Shown: piece by piece, positions 11,497 to 28,145 of the stretch
How the letters are laid out: the number at the start of each line of letters is the position of its first letter
Numbering within the stretch: the first letter of the stretch is position 1
From: a virus
IMG/VR virus record: IMGVR_UViG_3300044633_000479
Location: 1-28,182 of that record
Direction: 5' to 3' (one strand)
Length of the DNA: 28,182 nucleotides
Notes under the pieces: generated by a model
What the model was told of the DNA's origin: nothing
The model's input: the letters and a program-made list of their open reading frames with translations, nothing else
Database searches by the model: none
Program-made: the position numbers and the translations under genes

Positions 11497-12492
11497 TTAC
11501 CCCTTATTCACATTCATGCGGTCATATTCCGCGTATTTACGAATCATCTTGTTACGCTCGGTGATGTTATCCCATCTCCCGGCGTCCTTGATGGCGCGGA
11601 CTCGCTCAGGTGACAACCGGAACTCGTTCCCACGAGCTGTCGATTGTGATTCACGGCCTGAACTTGTTACCACGGTGCGAGGTCTCCGATTTGACGACTG
11701 ATTGTCGTTGCCGCCATTATAACGGTGCGGCAGGTATTTTGTCAATCTATTATCCAATTCTTCCCAGTAATCGGCAGTCTTCGGATCCCATCCGTCGGCC
11801 ACGAGAGCCTCGTCCACCTTGGTGGCGACTTGGGAGTCCATGTCCTTGCCGTTCGGATCGTACCAATCGTTCCGAGCCATCCAGTCCGAGGCGTGACGCT
11901 TGAGGAGAGGGTCCGGGGCTTGGGGTACGGAATTGCGGTTGGGTTCCGAGGCCACGGCACGCTTCTTGAGCGATTCGAGAGCCTCCACTTGGCGGCGGGC
12001 TTCGTACCACGCCTCCTGCGCCTCGACGACGGAAGTGCCATCGGCCATCTCGGTGGCCTCTTTCACCTTCATCTTTGCGTACTGAAGTCGCAAATTACCG
12101 TCTTCGATCGCCTTGTCCAGTCGAGCGAGGTCCGAACCGGCCGTGCGCTTTTCCAGAACCGCAAGACGTTCAGCCATGTGGTCATTCTGGCGTTTCAGCG
12201 AGGTAATCAGGTGGTTCGACTCACTTGCCTTGGCCTTCTGAAGCTTCTTCTTGAGCTGTCGCTCCTCGCGACGGGCCAGTCGAATCGCTTCGCGCTCGGG
12301 GTCAGCATGAGGTATATTATCGGCGGGATTATCATCATCGTCGCCGTCATCCGAATCTACTCGGCCACCAGTCCGAAGACCGTCGCCGCTATTTTCGGGG
12401 GTATTCGGTGCCTCGCCATCGGGCAAAGACACCACTGCGGACCCATCGGGTTCTTCCGCGAGTTGCAAATCGAGTTTATCGTTCGAGGTCAT
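11497..12492 (-). CDS. Capsid scaffolding protein
   Basis: A 331-residue, highly charged protein with the composition of a phage scaffold. It has an acidic disordered N-terminus (about 1-65, with a DDGDDDDN run), a long coiled coil (about 67-180, 'REERQLKKKLQKAKASESNH' and on), and a C-terminal basic region ('EFRLSPERVRAIKDAGRWDN') ending 'YAEYDRMNVNKG'. Scaffolds organise capsid subunits during procapsid assembly and then leave; the C-terminal basic helices usually bind the shell. The gene begins in an ATGA overlap with the GroES-like gene and sits two genes before the capsid gene, the standard position. Assignment is from composition and context, not a catalytic motif. A perfect sigma70 promoter is embedded in its codons at 11716-11745. 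Confidence 0.8.
   Translation of the reverse strand: MTSNDKLDLQLAEEPDGSAVVSLPDGEAPNTPENSGDGLRTGGRVDSDDGDDDDNPADNIPHADPEREAIRLARREERQLKKKLQKAKASESNHLITSLKRQNDHMAERLAVLEKRTAGSDLARLDKAIEDGNLRLQYAKMKVKEATEMADGTSVVEAQEAWYEARRQVEALESLKKRAVASEPNRNSVPQAPDPLLKRHASDWMARNDWYDPNGKDMDSQVATKVDEALVADGWDPKTADYWEELDNRLTKYLPHRYNGGNDNQSSNRRPRTVVTSSGRESQSTARGNEFRLSPERVRAIKDAGRWDNITERNKMIRKYAEYDRMNVNKG
11716..11745 (-). promoter_or_regulatory. Perfect sigma70 promoter inside the scaffold gene
   Basis: On the minus strand TTGACA (11740-11745) and TATAAT (11716-11721) are 18 bases apart, both perfect. TTG ACA encodes Leu-Thr and TAT AAT encodes Tyr-Asn of the scaffold protein (LTKYLPHRYNGG). Transcription from here would cover the 179-residue protein, the decoration protein and the major capsid protein. 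Confidence 0.7.
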
Positions 12493-12923
12493 AGGAATGC
12501 CTTTACTTTCAAGGGGTCACCAGTAACTTTTGCAATTACTTCGTGATCATTAAACACACTAAAAAGTGCGGTCTCGCCTATCGTTGGGTCCCCATAAGGT
12601 ACTTCCCAGCGATCGCCGCCCCACTTTGGCATGCGAACATAGTCGCCGACATCGATCCAGTTGCCCTCGGGCCACGATTCGAGTGTATCGCGTTTCTTGA
12701 AAGCTAGTGGACCCACCGCGATGACTTTCGCCACTTGGTTATTCCACTTCTCCGTTTCCTTCGTCTCCTCGACGAGTACAATTCCTGACGATGTGACGGT
12801 CTTCTTGGCGGCTCTCCACTGCACAAGAATTCGTCCACCTACAGGCAAAGCACCGGGGTCTACTGCGGGAAATGCTTCCTGCAACGCGGCTTCATGCGAA
12901 GCCACCGGTTGAGTATCACTCAT
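12489..12923 (-). CDS. GroES-like co-chaperonin
   Basis: A 144-residue protein. Residues 26-75 match the GroES (Cpn10) barrel and mobile loop: 'LPVGGRILVQWRAAKKTVTS' then SGIVLVEETKETEKWNNQVA and 'KVIAVGPLAF'. The Gly-Ile-Val-Leu at 47-50 is the GroEL-binding tripeptide of the mobile loop. 'VGDYVRMPKWGGDRWEVPYG' corresponds to the second half of the fold. In the cell it would cap host GroEL and help fold capsid proteins, as T4 gp31 does. No GroEL gene is visible, so host GroEL would be used. The second ATG (12921-12923) is chosen because GAGGA lies eight bases upstream; the first ATG (12927-12929) would leave only two bases. It lies directly before the scaffold gene. Confidence 0.8.
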   Translation of the reverse strand: MSDTQPVASHEAALQEAFPAVDPGALPVGGRILVQWRAAKKTVTSSGIVLVEETKETEKWNNQVAKVIAVGPLAFKKRDTLESWPEGNWIDVGDYVRMPKWGGDRWEVPYGDPTIGETALFSVFNDHEVIAKVTGDPLKVKAFL

Positions 12924-13101
12924 TGTCATCTTCCTCTTTTAAAAGGTCATTTAAAATTACCAGAGCTTCTTCAAGCCCTTGGTGCTGGCCAACTAAGCGT
13001 TGGTAGGCCTCAAAGGTGACGGCATTGCCATGCACCAATGACTGCGCGATCGCCGATTTGCGGACCTCAATAGCACCAATGAGGTCACTGACGTATCGCA
13101 T
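12916..13101 (-). CDS. Small helical phage protein, unknown function
   Basis: A 61-residue, mostly helical protein: 'MRYVSDLIGAIEVRKSAIAQ' then 'VTFEAYQRLVGQHQGLEEAL' and a very acidic tail LLKEEDDNE. The ATG (13099-13101) overlaps the TAA stop of the preceding 55-residue gene (TAATG) and its 3' end overlaps the GroES-like start, so it sits in a continuous translated chain. The motif 'GNAxxFExYQRLVGQxQGLEE' is found in small proteins of unknown role near the portal genes of aquatic phages (from memory). No function can be assigned. Confidence 0.68.
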   Translation of the reverse strand: MRYVSDLIGAIEVRKSAIAQSLVHGNAVTFEAYQRLVGQHQGLEEALVILNDLLKEEDDNE

Positions 13102-15818: not shown

Positions 15819-17032
15819 TACTCACCAATGTCTTTGGCCGTTTGCCGTAGTCCTTCGTACACTTCGGGTGCACGCTCGCGCATCGCACGAATTCGGGGTC
15901 GAATGCTGGAGAGGGGCGCACCAGTCAGCGACTCGGGCAACGCACCCATCATGCCGCGCATCACCTCACCGGGACCAGCCTTGTTATCCAGCGCGGTGAA
16001 GACTTCGGGATCTTTGTACGCTTGGTACATGTCGTCAATTCTGAATCGCTCCGGTGCTTTGGGCATCATACTGCGAACGAAATCCATCGCCTGCTCTTCG
16101 CTCATGCCTTTGCGCACTGCTTCAGCGATCAACGCGGGGACCATGTCGAAAGTGAACGCTGGTGCCGCAGATTCGACGACTTTAGCTACATTGCCCAAGC
16201 CACCCAATTCGGGCAACACACCGCGCATTGCCTGACCCGCCGCTGATTGCAAGACTTCGCGCCGAGACATCGGCGTTTCGCTAATCGATTTTAATGTAGA
16301 CTTTGCCGCGCCCTTACCGGGATCGATGGTCACGGATTTCTCAGTGATGGCTGGCGCATTCTTGAACATGTCCTTGTCCATCTTGGCCAGTGGGAAATCC
16401 GACGCCTTGCCAAGACCGAGAAACCCACGGCGTGCGAGGTCCGGCTTGTCGGCCAGCTTCACACTCTTTTGTGCCATCTCCGCCATCATCTGGTCAAGCG
16501 TCTTCTTCACACCGCCACCCTTATTGAAGGGCTGGGGGTCGGGGATGAAGCGTCCACCGTCTTGCATGTCAGGAATCGAGAAATCAATCGCACCGCCATT
16601 GGCGAATTTCTTTTTCTTAGGTGCGGCACTCATGTACTGCTGGGCCGACATCGGTGCCTCTTCGAAATCCTTGCGGCGCGTAGCGGTCGTTGGGCTGTAC
16701 GGGTCACGCCCTTGACGATTGTACTCGTCCATCATCGCCCTTAGCATCTGATTGCTGATCGATGGCTCATCAGGGTGAACACCGAAAATGCGAGGATCGC
16801 GATACTGCATGTTGAACGCCATGCTTTCGTACGACGGCTGATCAACGGTTGGCGGATTAGGCGCACTCGGTGGTCCACGACGTCTGTTCAAGTCGGTCAT
16901 TTCATCCGGGCCGAGTTCACCGGATCGAAACAGCATGCCCAGCGGCACTGAATTGCGCAAACCGGCCAACAGCGTGGCCGCGTCGATTGGGTCTAGGCCC
17001 TGCAGGAAGTCGTCGATCAGATTACTGGGCAT
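15803..17032 (-). CDS. KxGG-motif protein with internal twin-arginine-like motifs, unknown function
   Basis: A 409-residue protein between the large terminase and portal genes. An N-terminal helical and disordered part is followed by three GG motifs (KFANGGAI at 142-149, MQDGG at 156-160, NKGGGVKK at 170-177). Two internal motifs resemble Tat signal cores: ARRGFLGLG at 200-208 and MSRREVLQSAAGQA at 255-268. The second is followed by a long mildly hydrophobic helical stretch (to about 305). Because they are internal they are unlikely to be export signals as such. The C-terminal 100 residues are charged and helical. Start ATG with GAGGG seven bases upstream, overlapping the terminase stop. Function unknown; its position suggests a virion protein, perhaps ejected with the DNA (inference). 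Confidence 0.72.
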   Translation of the reverse strand: MPSNLIDDFLQGLDPIDAATLLAGLRNSVPLGMLFRSGELGPDEMTDLNRRRGPPSAPNPPTVDQPSYESMAFNMQYRDPRIFGVHPDEPSISNQMLRAMMDEYNRQGRDPYSPTTATRRKDFEEAPMSAQQYMSAAPKKKKFANGGAIDFSIPDMQDGGRFIPDPQPFNKGGGVKKTLDQMMAEMAQKSVKLADKPDLARRGFLGLGKASDFPLAKMDKDMFKNAPAITEKSVTIDPGKGAAKSTLKSISETPMSRREVLQSAAGQAMRGVLPELGGLGNVAKVVESAAPAFTFDMVPALIAEAVRKGMSEEQAMDFVRSMMPKAPERFRIDDMYQAYKDPEVFTALDNKAGPGEVMRGMMGALPESLTGAPLSSIRPRIRAMRERAPEVYEGLRQTAKDIGEYGHEN

Positions 17033-18458
17033 AAGGGTTCCCTCGGTTGGGTCTGTATTCGTCGTCCACGTAGTCGTTGTCCGGTGGTATCGGATCGATT
17101 TGCAGGAACGACATGTCTTTCAGCAGTCGCAGTGCTTGGGACAGCGTGTCGGTCAGGTCATCCCGGTCTGCCTCGGGGAATGAGCACACTTGGGAGACCA
17201 GCGGCTCTGCCCAATCGCGCGGTTGGCCCGGATGGACGAGCGATTCGGGAATGTAGACGCGGCCGTGTGCAATGATGTTGGCGACCAGATGCAAACGCTG
17301 TACTTTGTCGGCGCGGCCCGGGTTGTAGGCGCGGCACGGCACACCGGCACGCTGTAAGTCCTGCAAAATGCTAATGCCTGACGCCTTGTCCTCGACGAGC
17401 ACGAGGTCCACCTTTTTGCCGGGGTCGCCGTAGATCGAGCCGTACTCGTCGATGATCTTGGGTCGCAAATCGGGGTACGCGAGGAAGTCCTCCCAGCAGT
17501 CGATGAGCATAGCGCAAAGCCCGCTGTCCTCATTCGGCCGAAAGATGCCCCACACGGAGCACGCGGTCGGATCGTTTTGCGTCTTTTCAGTGTACGCGCA
17601 GTCGTAGGACTGGAGCACATAAAGGAATTCGGGCAGTACCTTTTTCGCGTCCCACAGCTTGAACCACTCGCGTTTGACGATGCCGTAGTCTTCGGGGTCG
17701 ATGACCTCCGCGTACAGCTCCTGCCGCCCAATGCGTGTGCCCTCGTACTGCGACACGATTTCGTCACGAAACGTGGGTGCGAGGTTATTGAAATTCTCGT
17801 GCGTTGTGCCTGTGGTGACGATGACGCGGTCCTCACTAATCAGGCGGCGTACGATCGGGATGGGCTTTGGCGTGGTGGTGATGCAAACGCGGGGCTTTTG
17901 CCCCAGTCGCAGGCCAAACATTAAGTTGGACCACATGTCCTCCGCATTGCGGAATTTCGCCAGTTCGTCCACCCAAGCCAAATCGTGCTGTGGTCCCCGC
18001 AATGTCTCGGGGTCGTTGTCCGAGTAGATCGTAGCGATCGCGCCATTGGGCCACTCCAGTCGCCGCTTGGAAGGTACAAATACCGGCTTGCATTTGGGGT
18101 GCGAGATGGCCAAAATGCCCGATTCGCCTTCCACCATCACATCGCGTGCGTCGCCCGCGTCTTCGGCAATGAGTGCAATGCGGCCAGCCAGTCCGTTTTC
18201 GGCATGGTAGCGCACGAATTCGGCACCACAGCGGGTTTTGCCCCAGCCACGCCCGGCGAGGATCATCCAAATGGTCCAGTCGTCACCCGGTGGTATCGTC
18301 TGGTTGTGCCGCGCCCACGTGGGCCAGTCGTAGAAGAGTTCGAGTGCTTCGCGGTCCGACAACTCGTCCACGAACTCGTGCCAGTTCGCCGAATCGACGA
18401 TAGTCGACTTTTTACTCCGCCTTTGAGCGCGAGTTAAGACGTTGGGCAAGGCGATCAC
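17022..18458 (-). CDS. terL: Terminase large subunit
   Basis: About 478 residues. The ATPase domain carries a Walker A 'GRGWGKTR' near residue 70 and the Walker B 'WVDEL' in 'HDLAWVDELAKF'. A motif of the coupling type follows ('VCITTTPKPIPIVRRL'). The C-terminal nuclease domain shows 'SYDCAYTEKTQNDPTACSVW' (first acidic residue), 'DLVLVEDKASGISILQDLQR' and 'DRDDLTDTLSQALRLL' (last acidic residue). It cuts the concatemer and pumps DNA into the head through the portal. No ATG lies near the start. I chose the GTG at 18456-18458, preceded by GAAGG five bases upstream; a TTG at 18486-18488 would add ten residues. Either choice overlaps the end of the small subunit gene, so coupled translation is likely. 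Confidence 0.92.
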   Translation of the reverse strand: MIALPNVLTRAQRRSKKSTIVDSANWHEFVDELSDREALELFYDWPTWARHNQTIPPGDDWTIWMILAGRGWGKTRCGAEFVRYHAENGLAGRIALIAEDAGDARDVMVEGESGILAISHPKCKPVFVPSKRRLEWPNGAIATIYSDNDPETLRGPQHDLAWVDELAKFRNAEDMWSNLMFGLRLGQKPRVCITTTPKPIPIVRRLISEDRVIVTTGTTHENFNNLAPTFRDEIVSQYEGTRIGRQELYAEVIDPEDYGIVKREWFKLWDAKKVLPEFLYVLQSYDCAYTEKTQNDPTACSVWGIFRPNEDSGLCAMLIDCWEDFLAYPDLRPKIIDEYGSIYGDPGKKVDLVLVEDKASGISILQDLQRAGVPCRAYNPGRADKVQRLHLVANIIAHGRVYIPESLVHPGQPRDWAEPLVSQVCSFPEADRDDLTDTLSQALRLLKDMSFLQIDPIPPDNDYVDDEYRPNRGNPYAQ

Positions 18459-19071: not shown

Positions 19072-19127
19072 GAAGCGAATTAAAACACAGATGCCACGCG
19101 GCACGCAATACCCGGCGTTGTATGACC

Positions 19128-19174
19128 AAGCGTTATAGCGAAGCGTCCGAGCATAGCCGGAAGTTATAACGCTT
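19128..19174. repeat. 10-bp perfect inverted repeat upstream of terS
   Basis: AAGCGTTATA (19128-19137) and TATAACGCTT (19165-19174) are exact reverse complements separated by 27 bases. The spacer itself can form a small inner stem (TCCG/CGGA). A perfect 10-bp palindrome, TGTGCGCACA, follows at 19176-19185. It lies 57 bases upstream of the terS start. It could be a protein-binding site, an RNA leader structure or part of a packaging site. Confidence 0.6.
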
Positions 19175-19253
19175 TTGTGCGCACACACGAGAAGCCCAAG
19201 ATGAAGCCCTAAGTGGTGGTGGAGGAATATTCGACGTCTGAAGACCCCCGTTT

Positions 19254-19505
19254 GTTCCACAACGATGGAACGGTGATGGAACGCATCACTGCCTCACAAG
19301 CCCCGTCCGACGCGGGTTTCGAGACACACAGCCCGTGTACCATTGTTCCATCTAATACCCCCCGCCTCGAACCATGCCGTTGACAGGGCAGTACCCCCGC
19401 GTGCGCATGTAACAATGGAACACCGGGTCTTTTTTCGAATGGGAGGAGCGTTCCATCATGCGTTCCATCTTAATGGAACGGTGGAACGTTGCTTTTCTTG
19501 TTCCA
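19254..19505. repeat. Array of ten GTTCCA/TGGAAC motifs
   Basis: GTTCCA occurs at 19254, 19345, 19450, 19462 and 19500 on the plus strand, and TGGAAC at 19266, 19277, 19416, 19474 and 19482. In 252 bases about 0.1 copies would be expected by chance over both orientations. The core at 19449-19488 is a nested palindrome: CGTTCCAT twice, then ATGGAACG and GTGGAACG, with only CTTA between the central pair. Two copies at 19265-19283 are direct repeats 11 bases apart. The helical-turn-like spacing (8, 11 and 12 bases) fits cooperative binding by a dimeric protein. Confidence 0.85.
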
Positions 19506-19557
19506 CCAGCGTCGGGAGATCCGACACGAGTACAGCGCATTGCACGCCGTGAACGAA

Positions 19558-23086: not shown

Positions 23087-23115
23087 ATTATAACACAGGT
23101 GCTACAGTCTGTCAA
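23087..23115 (-). promoter_or_regulatory. Perfect sigma70 promoter P3
   Basis: TTGACA (23110-23115) and TATAAT (23087-23092) on the minus strand, spacer 17. The TGA stop of the upstream 250-residue gene (23112-23114) lies inside the TTGACA box. It drives the 85-, 80- and 90-residue genes. Confidence 0.88.
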
Positions 23116-23864
23116 GTACCCCTTGCCGCTAGGTAGATCTTTTCGAGCATGCCCACCAGCACAGCCACGCTTCCGTTGCAGTAGTGGAGCTTCGGGGCTT
23201 TGCGGTATTTGTCCTGCACGGCGTGCGAAATGAACTTGGTCATCAGGACAGTGTGCGCTCGTAGGATCTTCGGCCGGTTCACGGCGTCTTCGGCGGTGAA
23301 GAAGTACAGGTCCAGCTTGTCGGCCAGCAGATTGCTCACGTAGTGCGCTTGAGCGGGGATAAGCCCGATCACTAGCACGCCGGGTTTGGCGTAGCCAGTC
23401 GGGTGCGGGATCGGCTGGGGGTCATGCTTGGGGCGATGCTCGGTCAGAGAGATGCCGGGCTGGAATTGCCGGGCAGGGAGATCCGCCACCTTTGCCGCGA
23501 CCTTGGCGGCTACGGACTCGGCGACGACGTCCAGTAGTAGCTCGAGTATATCCGCGAGCCTTCCCTTGGGGGTCTCCTTGCGTTCAGGCGCAGGGGTCGG
23601 GGCTGGTATAGGGGCGGGGACATCGACGGTCTCCGGGGGCTTCTTCCTTGACTCTTGCAAAGCCTTTTGCCGAGCGACCTCGATACGGTCTTTGTAGTTG
23701 AATACGCGCTGGTCAGTAGCTACGATCCGGCGATCGAATCGAAGCACAGACTGCGCTCGGGTTAATGCCTCTTTGCGAGGAAGATTCGGGAACTGCTTAA
23801 AAACCTCGACCATGTTGGCGAAGACCGCGCCTTTTTCGATTACGGACCAGACTATTCGAGCCAT
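23112..23864 (-). CDS. DUF2325-like phage protein
   Basis: A 250-residue protein in three parts. The N-terminal region (1-70) is helical and basic ('FKQFPNLPRKEALTRAQSVL' then RFDRRIV). A Pro/Ala-rich linker (about 76-98) follows, then a helical segment (102-130). The C-terminal domain (161-245) is alpha/beta: 'KPGVLVIGLIPAQAHYVSNL', 'LDLYFFTAED', 'AHTVLMTKFISHAVQDKYRK' and 'KLHYCNGSVAVLVGML'. The order 'vlViGl...Vl.TkFiSHa' resembles the DUF2325 family, whose function is unknown. It is the only gene after promoter P6, and its leader contains a strong terminator hairpin, so its expression is probably conditional. GAGGA is the ribosome binding site. Confidence 0.65.
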   Translation of the reverse strand: MARIVWSVIEKGAVFANMVEVFKQFPNLPRKEALTRAQSVLRFDRRIVATDQRVFNYKDRIEVARQKALQESRKKPPETVDVPAPIPAPTPAPERKETPKGRLADILELLLDVVAESVAAKVAAKVADLPARQFQPGISLTEHRPKHDPQPIPHPTGYAKPGVLVIGLIPAQAHYVSNLLADKLDLYFFTAEDAVNRPKILRAHTVLMTKFISHAVQDKYRKAPKLHYCNGSVAVLVGMLEKIYLAARGT

Positions 23865-26070: not shown

Positions 26071-27322
26071 GCGCGAGTCCTCCTTTTTTGTAGCGGTTCT
26101 TGTAGGCACCGGCGGGGGCCTCTATCACCAGACGCTCGACGATCTCCTCGGGGTCGTACCCTTTGAGCATTCCGCGAATCAGTGCCTCGGTGGTGGCCTG
26201 TCGTCCGAGCGTTGTCGGACCCATCGCGCCCTGAATACTACCGGGGTTGGCGATCACCTGTGGCTCGGCGAGATTCTTGAGCAAGACGTTCTCGTAGGGT
26301 CGCACTTGGCTGACGCGCAGGGGTGACTGGGTGCCGGTCTTGGGACCGTAGGCTCCCGCCATCTGCGCTTCGCGTGTCAAAAGCGTGCCGAGGGTCTGCT
26401 CGGGCGTCATCTGCAGGAAGTCGGGTGTACGCAGGTCCGACGCCGCGTCCATCAGTTCGTCGGTCTTTTTGTTCGCTTTCAGGCCCGGGCCGCCGAATAG
26501 CTTCTTCAGGTAGTAGTCCTCGGCGTGTGCGGCCTGAACGGGGCTGGAGAAAAGCTGGCCGGACATCCCGGGCATATGGCCCCACTCCTCCACCGGAGCG
26601 ATGAAGCCGAGGTCGCCGTGTCCGAGGGAGTGCGACGCGATGTTACCCAGTCGCCGCGCTTGGTTCACGTCGGTCAGGTGCGAAGACACGTTGCCGTGGC
26701 CTTGTGCTCGCATCATGTCGTACGCCAGCGCGTACATCTCTTTGCCTTTCGCGGGTAGATTCTTCCACCACGCCGCGTCAGGGTCGCGCATTCCGTAGCC
26801 GTCGGGCTTGACGTCCATCGCGTACAGCTCGGTCATCACCGGATCAGGGCGGGAGCTGGAAAAGGGCTGACGCATTGCCGCTTGGTAGCGTGGGTCGCGT
26901 GCCGCCGCCGTTTTCATGTACTGCTCGAGGCCGTACCCCATGTCCTCTTTACCGGGTCGCACTCGTCCACGGTCCCAAGTGATGTTGGGGTGGTAACCAC
27001 GGGCGTGCGCTTCGTCGAGGTCCTTCGGTACTTTGCTTTCGGGGTCCAGTCGAATCTTGCCGGTCTGCGGCATGAACCCGCTTTTCACGGCGTCTTGATT
27101 CATCGAGGACATCGTCGCACGGATCGGCTCGCCACTGGGGGTCTTGCCAAAGATACCGGCCTTGTTATACTGCTCCAGCACCTCAGCGGGGAGCATAGTC
27201 TTTTGCGCTTGACGCATCGAGAGCGGAATGCGTTGGGCTTCGGGGAGAGCGGCGAGGGCGCGATGGCCCTTACCTACTCCCTGCATTAGGTCAGCGAACG
27301 ACAGATTGTTCAGGAGTGACAT
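26051..27322 (-). CDS. Unknown phage protein with C-terminal KKGG motif, paired with the deacetylase gene
   Basis: A 423-residue protein, not recognised. The start is the ATG at 27320-27322, with GAGG six bases upstream; an upstream in-frame start 25 codons earlier only mirrors the deacetylase gene. It overlaps the end of the deacetylase gene by 32 bases, so both are probably translated together. Notable segments are 'DPDAAWWKNLPAKGKEMYAL', 'AYDMMRAQGHGNVSSHLTDV' and 'NQARRLGNIASHSLGHGDLG' (about residues 178-240), a His/Gly-rich core that looks like a folded domain. The C-terminus, 'YKNRYKKGGLAHAAVIA', carries the KxGG motif seen in several structural-region proteins. That link suggests a virion-associated or ejected protein; this is inference. 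Confidence 0.7.
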   Translation of the reverse strand: MSLLNNLSFADLMQGVGKGHRALAALPEAQRIPLSMRQAQKTMLPAEVLEQYNKAGIFGKTPSGEPIRATMSSMNQDAVKSGFMPQTGKIRLDPESKVPKDLDEAHARGYHPNITWDRGRVRPGKEDMGYGLEQYMKTAAARDPRYQAAMRQPFSSSRPDPVMTELYAMDVKPDGYGMRDPDAAWWKNLPAKGKEMYALAYDMMRAQGHGNVSSHLTDVNQARRLGNIASHSLGHGDLGFIAPVEEWGHMPGMSGQLFSSPVQAAHAEDYYLKKLFGGPGLKANKKTDELMDAASDLRTPDFLQMTPEQTLGTLLTREAQMAGAYGPKTGTQSPLRVSQVRPYENVLLKNLAEPQVIANPGSIQGAMGPTTLGRQATTEALIRGMLKGYDPEEIVERLVIEAPAGAYKNRYKKGGLAHAAVIA

Positions 27323-28145
27323 GGTATACCTCGTCGCTGATCGCCAGCGTTTGCAGATGGATGTCGATTGTGTCTTGCATGTTCTTCGCGTATCCACCGG
27401 CCAGATTCCAGACTAATGGGACCCCGGCTTCGCGTGCGGCGGTGAAGATGCCACGATCGCGGGCCGCGAGACCCTCCTTGGACAGGTATCCGACGCCATA
27501 GGGATCGCGGTCCCAAGCGTCAGCACCGGCCTGATACAGAATTATACCCGCCTTCGAGTCTCGAATCAATCCCTTAGCAAACGACTGCCACATCTCGGCA
27601 TTCCACTGCGAGTGGATAGGGCGTCCTATATCGGGGCGGGTAATGTGCGTCACGCGACCCCGGATCATCAGGTGGTCCATCACGTCCTCGGTGCCGTCGC
27701 CGTGGTGCCCGTCGCCGTCGATAATCAGCACATTCTTCGCGCCGTTGCGGAGCGCCTTCATCGCGGTGATCATCAGGCCGTTGAACGTGCAGTAGCCGTA
27801 GCCGTCCTCGAAGTGTGCGTGGTGGAAGCCCTGAGTCGCGGAGCAAGCGACACCGCCGTGCGTCAGCACGTGCTTAGCCGCCGCCCAGTGGCCAGCGTTC
27901 GTGTACAGGAGCGAATTGGTCAGCTCCGGATCGATCGTGCCGAAGCCGTTGGGGGCGACGTTCTTCAGGACGCCACGGACGTACTCGCGGTGGTGGGCCT
28001 CCTCGAAGTCGATCGCCGTGTACGGTTCGAAGTCGGAACGCACCCCCACACCTGACTGGGCGATGAACTTGGGGATCTTGCTCACCGAGATAAAGTCGTA
28101 GGAGACCTCTTGGGCCGGGTGGTAGAATACGGGGGTGCTAGTCAT
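27291..28145 (-). CDS. Histone-deacetylase/acetylpolyamine-amidohydrolase-like enzyme
   Basis: A 284-residue protein that matches the zinc-dependent HDAC/AcuC/acetylpolyamine amidohydrolase superfamily along its length. Key residues are all visible: the His pair at 108-109 in 'TQGFHHAHFEDGYGYCTFNG', the metal ligands Asp145 and His147 in 'VLIIDGDGHHGDGTED', Asp209 in 'YQAGADAWDRDPYG', and the catalytic-type Tyr252 in 'WNLAGGY'. Such enzymes remove acetyl groups from lysines, polyamines or small amides. It is shorter than typical (about 300-375 residues). The substrate in a phage setting is unknown; host proteins, polyamines or a phage partner are possible. The ATG follows the ATAGAGGACA leader; its main promoter is probably just beyond the right edge of the window. 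Confidence 0.85.
   Translation of the reverse strand: MTSTPVFYHPAQEVSYDFISVSKIPKFIAQSGVGVRSDFEPYTAIDFEEAHHREYVRGVLKNVAPNGFGTIDPELTNSLLYTNAGHWAAAKHVLTHGGVACSATQGFHHAHFEDGYGYCTFNGLMITAMKALRNGAKNVLIIDGDGHHGDGTEDVMDHLMIRGRVTHITRPDIGRPIHSQWNAEMWQSFAKGLIRDSKAGIILYQAGADAWDRDPYGVGYLSKEGLAARDRGIFTAAREAGVPLVWNLAGGYAKNMQDTIDIHLQTLAISDEVYHVTPEQSVVR
27541..27569 (-). promoter_or_regulatory. Possible sigma70 promoter inside the deacetylase gene
   Basis: On the minus strand TTGATT (27564-27569, four of six) and a perfect TATAAT (27541-27546) are 17 bases apart. It could provide separate transcription of the 423-residue gene, which starts about 220 bases downstream. Confidence 0.4.

Follow-up and report, generated by a model that had tools for sequence, protein, structure and literature searches.

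Paired, inverted arrays of a short GTTNC site as candidate replication origins in phages related to IMG/VR record IMGVR_UViG_3300044633_000479

The virus DNA analysed here (positions 1 to 28,182 of IMG/VR record IMGVR_UViG_3300044633_000479; this whole 28,182-nucleotide stretch is "the window") carries, just upstream of its small terminase gene (terS, encoding TerS), a dense array of the hexamer GTTCCA and its complement TGGAAC, which on balance we interpret as one of a pair of inverted, iteron-type replication origins located at the starts of the early and late operons. Direct observations are that the array exists, that its geometry is fixed, that it is duplicated and inverted, that it is linked to a replication module in phages whose TerS are unrelated, and that its motif changes jointly in both copies. 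An origin is favoured by the association with the replication module, by the initiator-like form of the site array, by its duplication, and by the presence of DnaA boxes in one group of phages.

A dense array in two orientations upstream of terS

The first-pass annotation had reported ten copies of the motif, in both orientations, within 252 bases. Ten exact copies are indeed present at 19254-19505, five per strand, and their clustering is far beyond chance: GTTCCA is the most clustered hexamer of the window, with 10 copies inside 260 bases, against a maximum of 6 for any hexamer across 60 trials with first-order Markov sequences. The motif occurs 23 times in the window (expected 15.7 +/- 4.1), and the 13 copies outside the array are at background level. 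The nested palindromic core claimed at the same time holds as GTTCCAT-N4-ATGGAAC at 19462-19479, as does the position directly upstream of terS, which borders the 486-base gap (19072-19557) that contains the array; the gap has a nuclease-like gene and terS on either side, both on the - strand. The span of 252 bases is correct for exact copies and too short for the full unit, which extends over approximately 19178-19505 once two variant sites, the spacers and the right flank are included. These variant sites, GTTACA at 19408-19413 and the degenerate GTACCA at 19337-19342, fall exactly at site positions of relatives. An Rfam search returned no match.

Geometry conserved among relatives

Among contigs that encode a relative of TerS and have at least 400 bases upstream of it (n = 67), 66 carry the array upstream of TerS; the sole exception, L027, may be a recombinant or chimeric contig, its TerS match beginning at residue 27. 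Site order, orientation and the 8/12-bp spacings are kept almost to the base, and this geometry is retained down to 60% TerS identity while the bases between sites drift, identity to the window being 0.90 in sites and 0.62 between sites (53 upstream sequences). GTTACA replaces GTTCCA at many or most sites in clades such as L031, L035, L060, L066 and L077. A scan for the DNA of the four-site block, made independently of TerS, gave 78 matching stretches in IMG/VR, and a scan of 257 Gb of prokaryotic genomes for the four-site pattern gave zero matches.

Read in the sense of terS, the full unit of relatives consists of block 1 (> 8 > 12 < 12 <), an inner pair (> 8 >), a centre of approximately 57 bases, a second inner pair (< 8 <) and block 4 (> 11-12 > 12 < 8 <); in the window, block 4 is without its last site and is shifted by approximately 28 bases relative to the shortest arrays. 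Conservation extends beyond the sites to CTCTCCCATTCGAAAA, to TGCGCACGCGGGGG ... GGGGGGTAT, to a G+C-rich inverted repeat, and, in the flank, to CAGACG and CCACCAC (features outside the sites, namely promoters, spacers and inverted repeats, were identified by eye). In L050 and L063, 12 of 12 sites are mirrored about a single dyad. We considered and rejected one dyad across the window's whole array, in which only 6 of 11 sites are mirrored (P = 0.10), and likewise a conserved cruciform at the central palindrome, mean pairing being flat over 104 distinct centres.

A second, inverted array before the primase gene

Each of the 12 near-complete relatives (55-59 kb) has two dense clusters, with extra, looser clusters in G003, G004, G010 and G011; five of the 12 overlap briefly at their ends and are thus circular as assembled. 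The second cluster (array 2) is inverted relative to the one upstream of terS (array 1) and is located before an AEP-TOTE primase gene (PF22548), behind which come an SNF2-type helicase, a UvrD-like helicase and a family-A polymerase (PolA); a sigma-70-like promoter, TTGCTG-N17-TATAAT, lies approximately 12 bases from its last site. With every large gene pointing in the same direction, the two arrays lie where the early and the late operon begin. The fraction of A in the motif agrees between the two arrays of each genome (r = 0.98 across the 12 genomes, driven by G007 and G009), and this joint motif choice suggests that one protein probably acts on both. The window, as a 28-kb fragment, does not extend to a second array, and we predict one for its phage from relatives with TerS up to 96% identical (G004). 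A more distant phage of similar size, MW202545, has no array.

The early operon of genomes G001-G012 (e.g. G003) also encodes a PurA-like protein with GSTGKG instead of the usual GDEGKG, a hallmark of PurZ, as well as an HD-domain YfbR-like hydrolase, a MazG-like protein and PolA. Judged from these genes, the phages of this group probably carry 2-aminoadenine (Z) genomes; the group's replication module is held in common with SH-Ab 15497, a known Z-phage. In the MazG-like protein of SH-Ab 15497 (32865-34022, L227) the C-terminal part is very variable between close phages, 13 of 15 residues being unique in one stretch. The early operon of G003 further contains an 82-residue open reading frame (rotated coordinates 48812-49060) in which a zinc ribbon of NrdR type (PF22811) is present and nothing else of NrdR is apparent.

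Arrays accompany the replication module in cultured phages

A search with the primase led to ten cultured phages (SH-Ab 15497, PMBT28, Kokobel2, Barton, JeffCo, K21lambda1, PSA28, pB23, Bhz9 and Bhz20), and an unbiased k-mer search recovered two clusters in all of these except Barton and JeffCo, whose arrays are weaker. The common core is GTTNC, with N being C in PMBT28, K21lambda1, PSA28 and Kokobel2, G in SH-Ab 15497, T and A in pB23, and A and C in the Bhz phages; within a genome, N changes together in both arrays. The TerS of PMBT28, SH-Ab 15497 and G015 have no detectable homology to that of the window group (hhalign probability below 1%), and PMBT28 nonetheless has the same GTTCCA arrays and a plainly homologous primase.

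Two arrays, with core GTTAC, are also present in a distant group of 37-kb genomes (G014, G015), the second of them at the start of the late genes, before the lysis and terminase genes. Compared with the window group, the replication genes of these genomes stand at 35% (primase), 35% (SNF2), 41% (phrog_2402 protein) and 44% (PolA), and the morphogenesis genes are largely different. No PurZ was detectable in the 37-kb group, indicating that the arrays accompany the replication module and not the Z system. Perfect DnaA boxes (TTATCCACA) occur in the primase-side array of this group, accounting for two of the genome's five boxes in G014 and one of three in G015.

Origin, operator, barrier or packaging site

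If the arrays are origins, each copy would be a replicator element of approximately 250-350 bases with up to 12 sites (core GTTNC) for one phage DNA-binding protein, arranged as two mirror-image four-site blocks and two mirror-image pairs about the centre. The protein, most likely from the replication module, would load on these sites and build a nucleoprotein complex that starts or directs DNA synthesis at both the early-operon and the late-operon copy, as gp38 does at oriL and oriR of Bacillus phage SPP1. This origin activity is our inference, as are the nature of the binder and any sharing of tasks between the two copies. As in iteron origins, there are multiple copies of a short site for what the joint motif change suggests is one, putative, sequence-specific protein, and there is linkage to a replication module, array 2 standing directly before the AEP primase operon in an association kept across groups.

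Several observations weigh against this interpretation. Whole arrays of the window group have an A+T fraction of 0.43-0.52, close to the 0.41-0.46 of the genomes, with no marked AT-rich unwinding stretch; short AT-rich runs are present in some array centres, and this criterion would be weakened by 2-aminoadenine, which the genome may carry. No DnaA boxes were found in the arrays of the cultured phages, and GC skew, in which the first-pass annotation proposed looking for a change at the array, shows no clear switch at window scale. Fourfold-site AT skew does differ between early and late segments in 12 of 12 genomes, a difference that expression level could cause. Both arrays also lie upstream of promoters. 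Finally, the primases of SH-Ab 15497 and pB23 are 97% identical yet the N bases of their sites differ, meaning that either few residues decide specificity or another protein binds, and a winged helix-turn-helix-like fold for the primase C-terminus (matches to SaPI Rep and a PadR winged helix-turn-helix) was rejected as being at chance level (Z 5.9-6.4).

Of the three proposals originally made for the array, an iteron-type origin fits best, an operator cluster stays in contention as the main rival, and a packaging (pac/cos) site is disfavoured. As an operator cluster, the arrays would be bound by a phage regulator that co-controls the early (primase) and late (TerS) promoters, an alternative that we consider unlikely. 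Each array is indeed upstream of an operon's first gene with a sigma-70-like promoter following it, and sites in two orientations would suit a dimeric regulator. However, the arrays are inverted relative to transcription, and the distance from array to promoter varies widely (approximately 12 bases at array 2 and 145 bases at array 1) while internal geometry is constant, a combination that an operator explains less well; the spacers and the G+C-rich inverted repeat are conserved too, and twelve sites across 250 bases are many for a simple operator.

Two inverted copies could also represent a site at which a phage protein acts in a centromere-like, fork-barrier or recombination role, rather than a start of synthesis; one copy might serve as an origin and its partner as a barrier or late origin, as has been proposed for SPP1 oriR; in the SPP1 model, forks stall at initiator-bound oriR and replication switches to concatemers (PMC6316719). 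We consider this improbable. Against it, neither ParA/ParB nor an integrase was noticed among the early genes, and the relative orientation of early and late segments is constant in the genomes examined.

Least probable by our assessment, and very doubtful, is a packaging site at which TerS would bind the array and the large terminase would cut in its centre, as the P1 pacase does at its hexamer-flanked pac. What gives this option weight is P1 pac, whose cut is surrounded by seven hexamers (HEX4, HEX3) (PMC10028697). Array 1 also adjoins terS in the window, in SPP1 the promoter region of terS overlaps with pac (PMC6316719), and the predicted structure of TerS has helix-turn-helix-like helices, its fold giving no match in the PDB with E below 0.001. 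Against this, genomes carry two inverted copies, one of them before the primase gene, instead of one site beside terS; PMBT28 combines the same arrays with a TerS of no detectable homology; and in PMBT28 and in both 37-kb genomes other genes separate the array from TerS. Contig ends near TerS are scattered, with no pile-up at one position, and several relatives assemble as circles. The authors of PMBT28 inferred a pac-type phage from its circular assembly (PMC6025938), so a pac site is to be expected somewhere; none was located in this analysis.

Candidate binding proteins and significance

Given that PMBT28 shares the GTTCCA arrays and a homologous primase with the window group in spite of its unrelated TerS, the binder is more likely to be found in the replication module than to be TerS, and probably belongs to that module. 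Candidates are the AEP primase with its C-terminal domain, or a partner, and the binder may instead be a different common gene product or a host protein. The model of the primase has a clear AEP domain (CAPP Prim-Pol, Z 19.6; RepB' and S-2L PrimPol lower), with a Foldseek match to RepB' (E = 1.6e-4), and its C-terminal part has no fold match above chance in the PDB comparison. A search for the binder across Acinetobacter phages brought out no universal protein.

We suggest, only tentatively, that these elements form a replicator class absent from the literature searched: twin, inverted, mirror-patterned GTTNC arrays serving as paired origins (or as an origin and a concatemer switch) for an AEP-primase/SNF2/PolA module, without a marked AT-rich stretch, in a family including Z-genome siphoviruses, where A:T-rich DNA would not melt easily. 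Our literature search found nothing on these arrays, no experiment on any of them, and no description of how replication starts in Z-genome phages. If the arrays are origins, they would provide a cis element, its motif and a short list of candidate initiators that are testable in cultured phages (SH-Ab 15497, PMBT28, Barton), and the combination of fixed geometry with a drifting motif makes a natural series for studying initiator/site co-evolution.

Features of the window and neighbouring genes

Coordinates of the array's parts and adjoining genes are given in Table 1. The putative terS promoter was not among the listed results of a promoter consensus scan; its -10 element, approximately 10 bases before the ATG and conserved in the group, suggests a nearly leaderless transcript. 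The nuclease-like protein has a weak homologue in the 37-kb group. Elsewhere in the window, a GroES-like co-chaperonin gene lies among the structural genes (12489-12929, -, phrog_3188). A protein of approximately 250 residues with no known family (23112-23864, -) has a related second copy adjoining it in G003 (rotated coordinates 53325-55240), and a 284-residue protein (27291-28145, -), conserved in relatives, resembles by eye a histone-deacetylase/acetoin-utilisation-type enzyme.

Table 1. Parts of the array and adjoining genes in the window.
Feature	Coordinates	Strand	Remarks
Large terminase gene	17022..18440	-	PF03237, E=4.9e-25
Small terminase gene (terS), 219 aa	18412..19071	-	phrog_4044, E=2.5e-16
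Putative sigma-70 promoter of terS	19079..19108	-	-35 TTGCGT, -10 TTTAAT; by eye from conserved bases, 53 upstream sequences
Right flank	19178..19246	.	conserved CAGACG, CCACCAC, CTCGTGTGTGCGCAC; beside array 2 also in some genomes
Ten exact GTTCCA/TGGAAC sites	19254..19505	.	
GTTCCA sites, + strand	19254, 19345, 19450, 19462, 19500	+	
GTTCCA sites, - strand	19266, 19277, 19416, 19474, 19482	-	
Block 4	19254..19282	-	approximate mirror of block 1; three of four sites present
G+C-rich inverted repeat AAGCCCCGTCCGACGCGGGTTT, second spacer	19298..19319		by eye; related form in array 2 and cultured phages
Opposite-facing inner pair	19337..19350	+	GTTCCA and degenerate GTACCA
Centre, 57 bases	19351..19407	.	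conserved TGCGCACGCGGGGG ... GGGGGGTAT elements; found in array 2 too
Inner pair	19408..19421	-	two direct sites 8 bp apart (GTTCCA, GTTACA)
Spacer element CTCCTCCCATTCGAAAAAAGACCC	19424..19447	.	form common to both arrays
Block 1, four sites	19450..19487	-	TerS sense > 8 > 12 < 12 <; spacing shared by nearly all relatives, both arrays
Extra outer site	19500..19505	+	retained in close relatives and some others
Nuclease-like gene, 148 aa	19558..20004	-	phrog_2165; last early gene before array

Comparison with known systems

RSF1010 oriV is brought to mind by the match between the phage primase and the AEP-family primase RepB', which acts at inverted initiation sites; the ssi sites of RSF1010 are single-strand hairpins located close together, whereas the arrays here are double-strand site arrays located far apart. 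In iteron plasmid and satellite origins (RepA-type, SaPI and PLE, for whose iterons see PMC7145576), short initiator repeats adjoin the replication genes, and repeats and initiator change together. Such replicons usually have one origin with mostly direct iterons, in contrast to the duplicated array and the fixed 8/12-bp spacing in mixed orientation described here. P1 pac similarly has groups of hexamers flanking a centre, and it lies beside or inside packaging genes (PMC10028697), but its hexamer is unrelated, and the present arrays occur as two inverted copies per genome and are not tied to a single TerS family.

In function, the closest model is SPP1, with its initiator gp38 bound at oriL and oriR (PMC6316719). 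SPP1 is likewise a virulent phage transcribed from one strand, and its genome contains two repeat-bearing origins of similar organisation: one origin is at the initiator gene, the other in a long intergenic stretch of the late region (PMC6316719). The phages described here differ in that their sites are mirror-arranged, the two copies are inverted and separated by roughly 20-36 kb, no marked AT-rich stretch is present, and the replication module consists of an AEP primase, an SNF2-type helicase and PolA.
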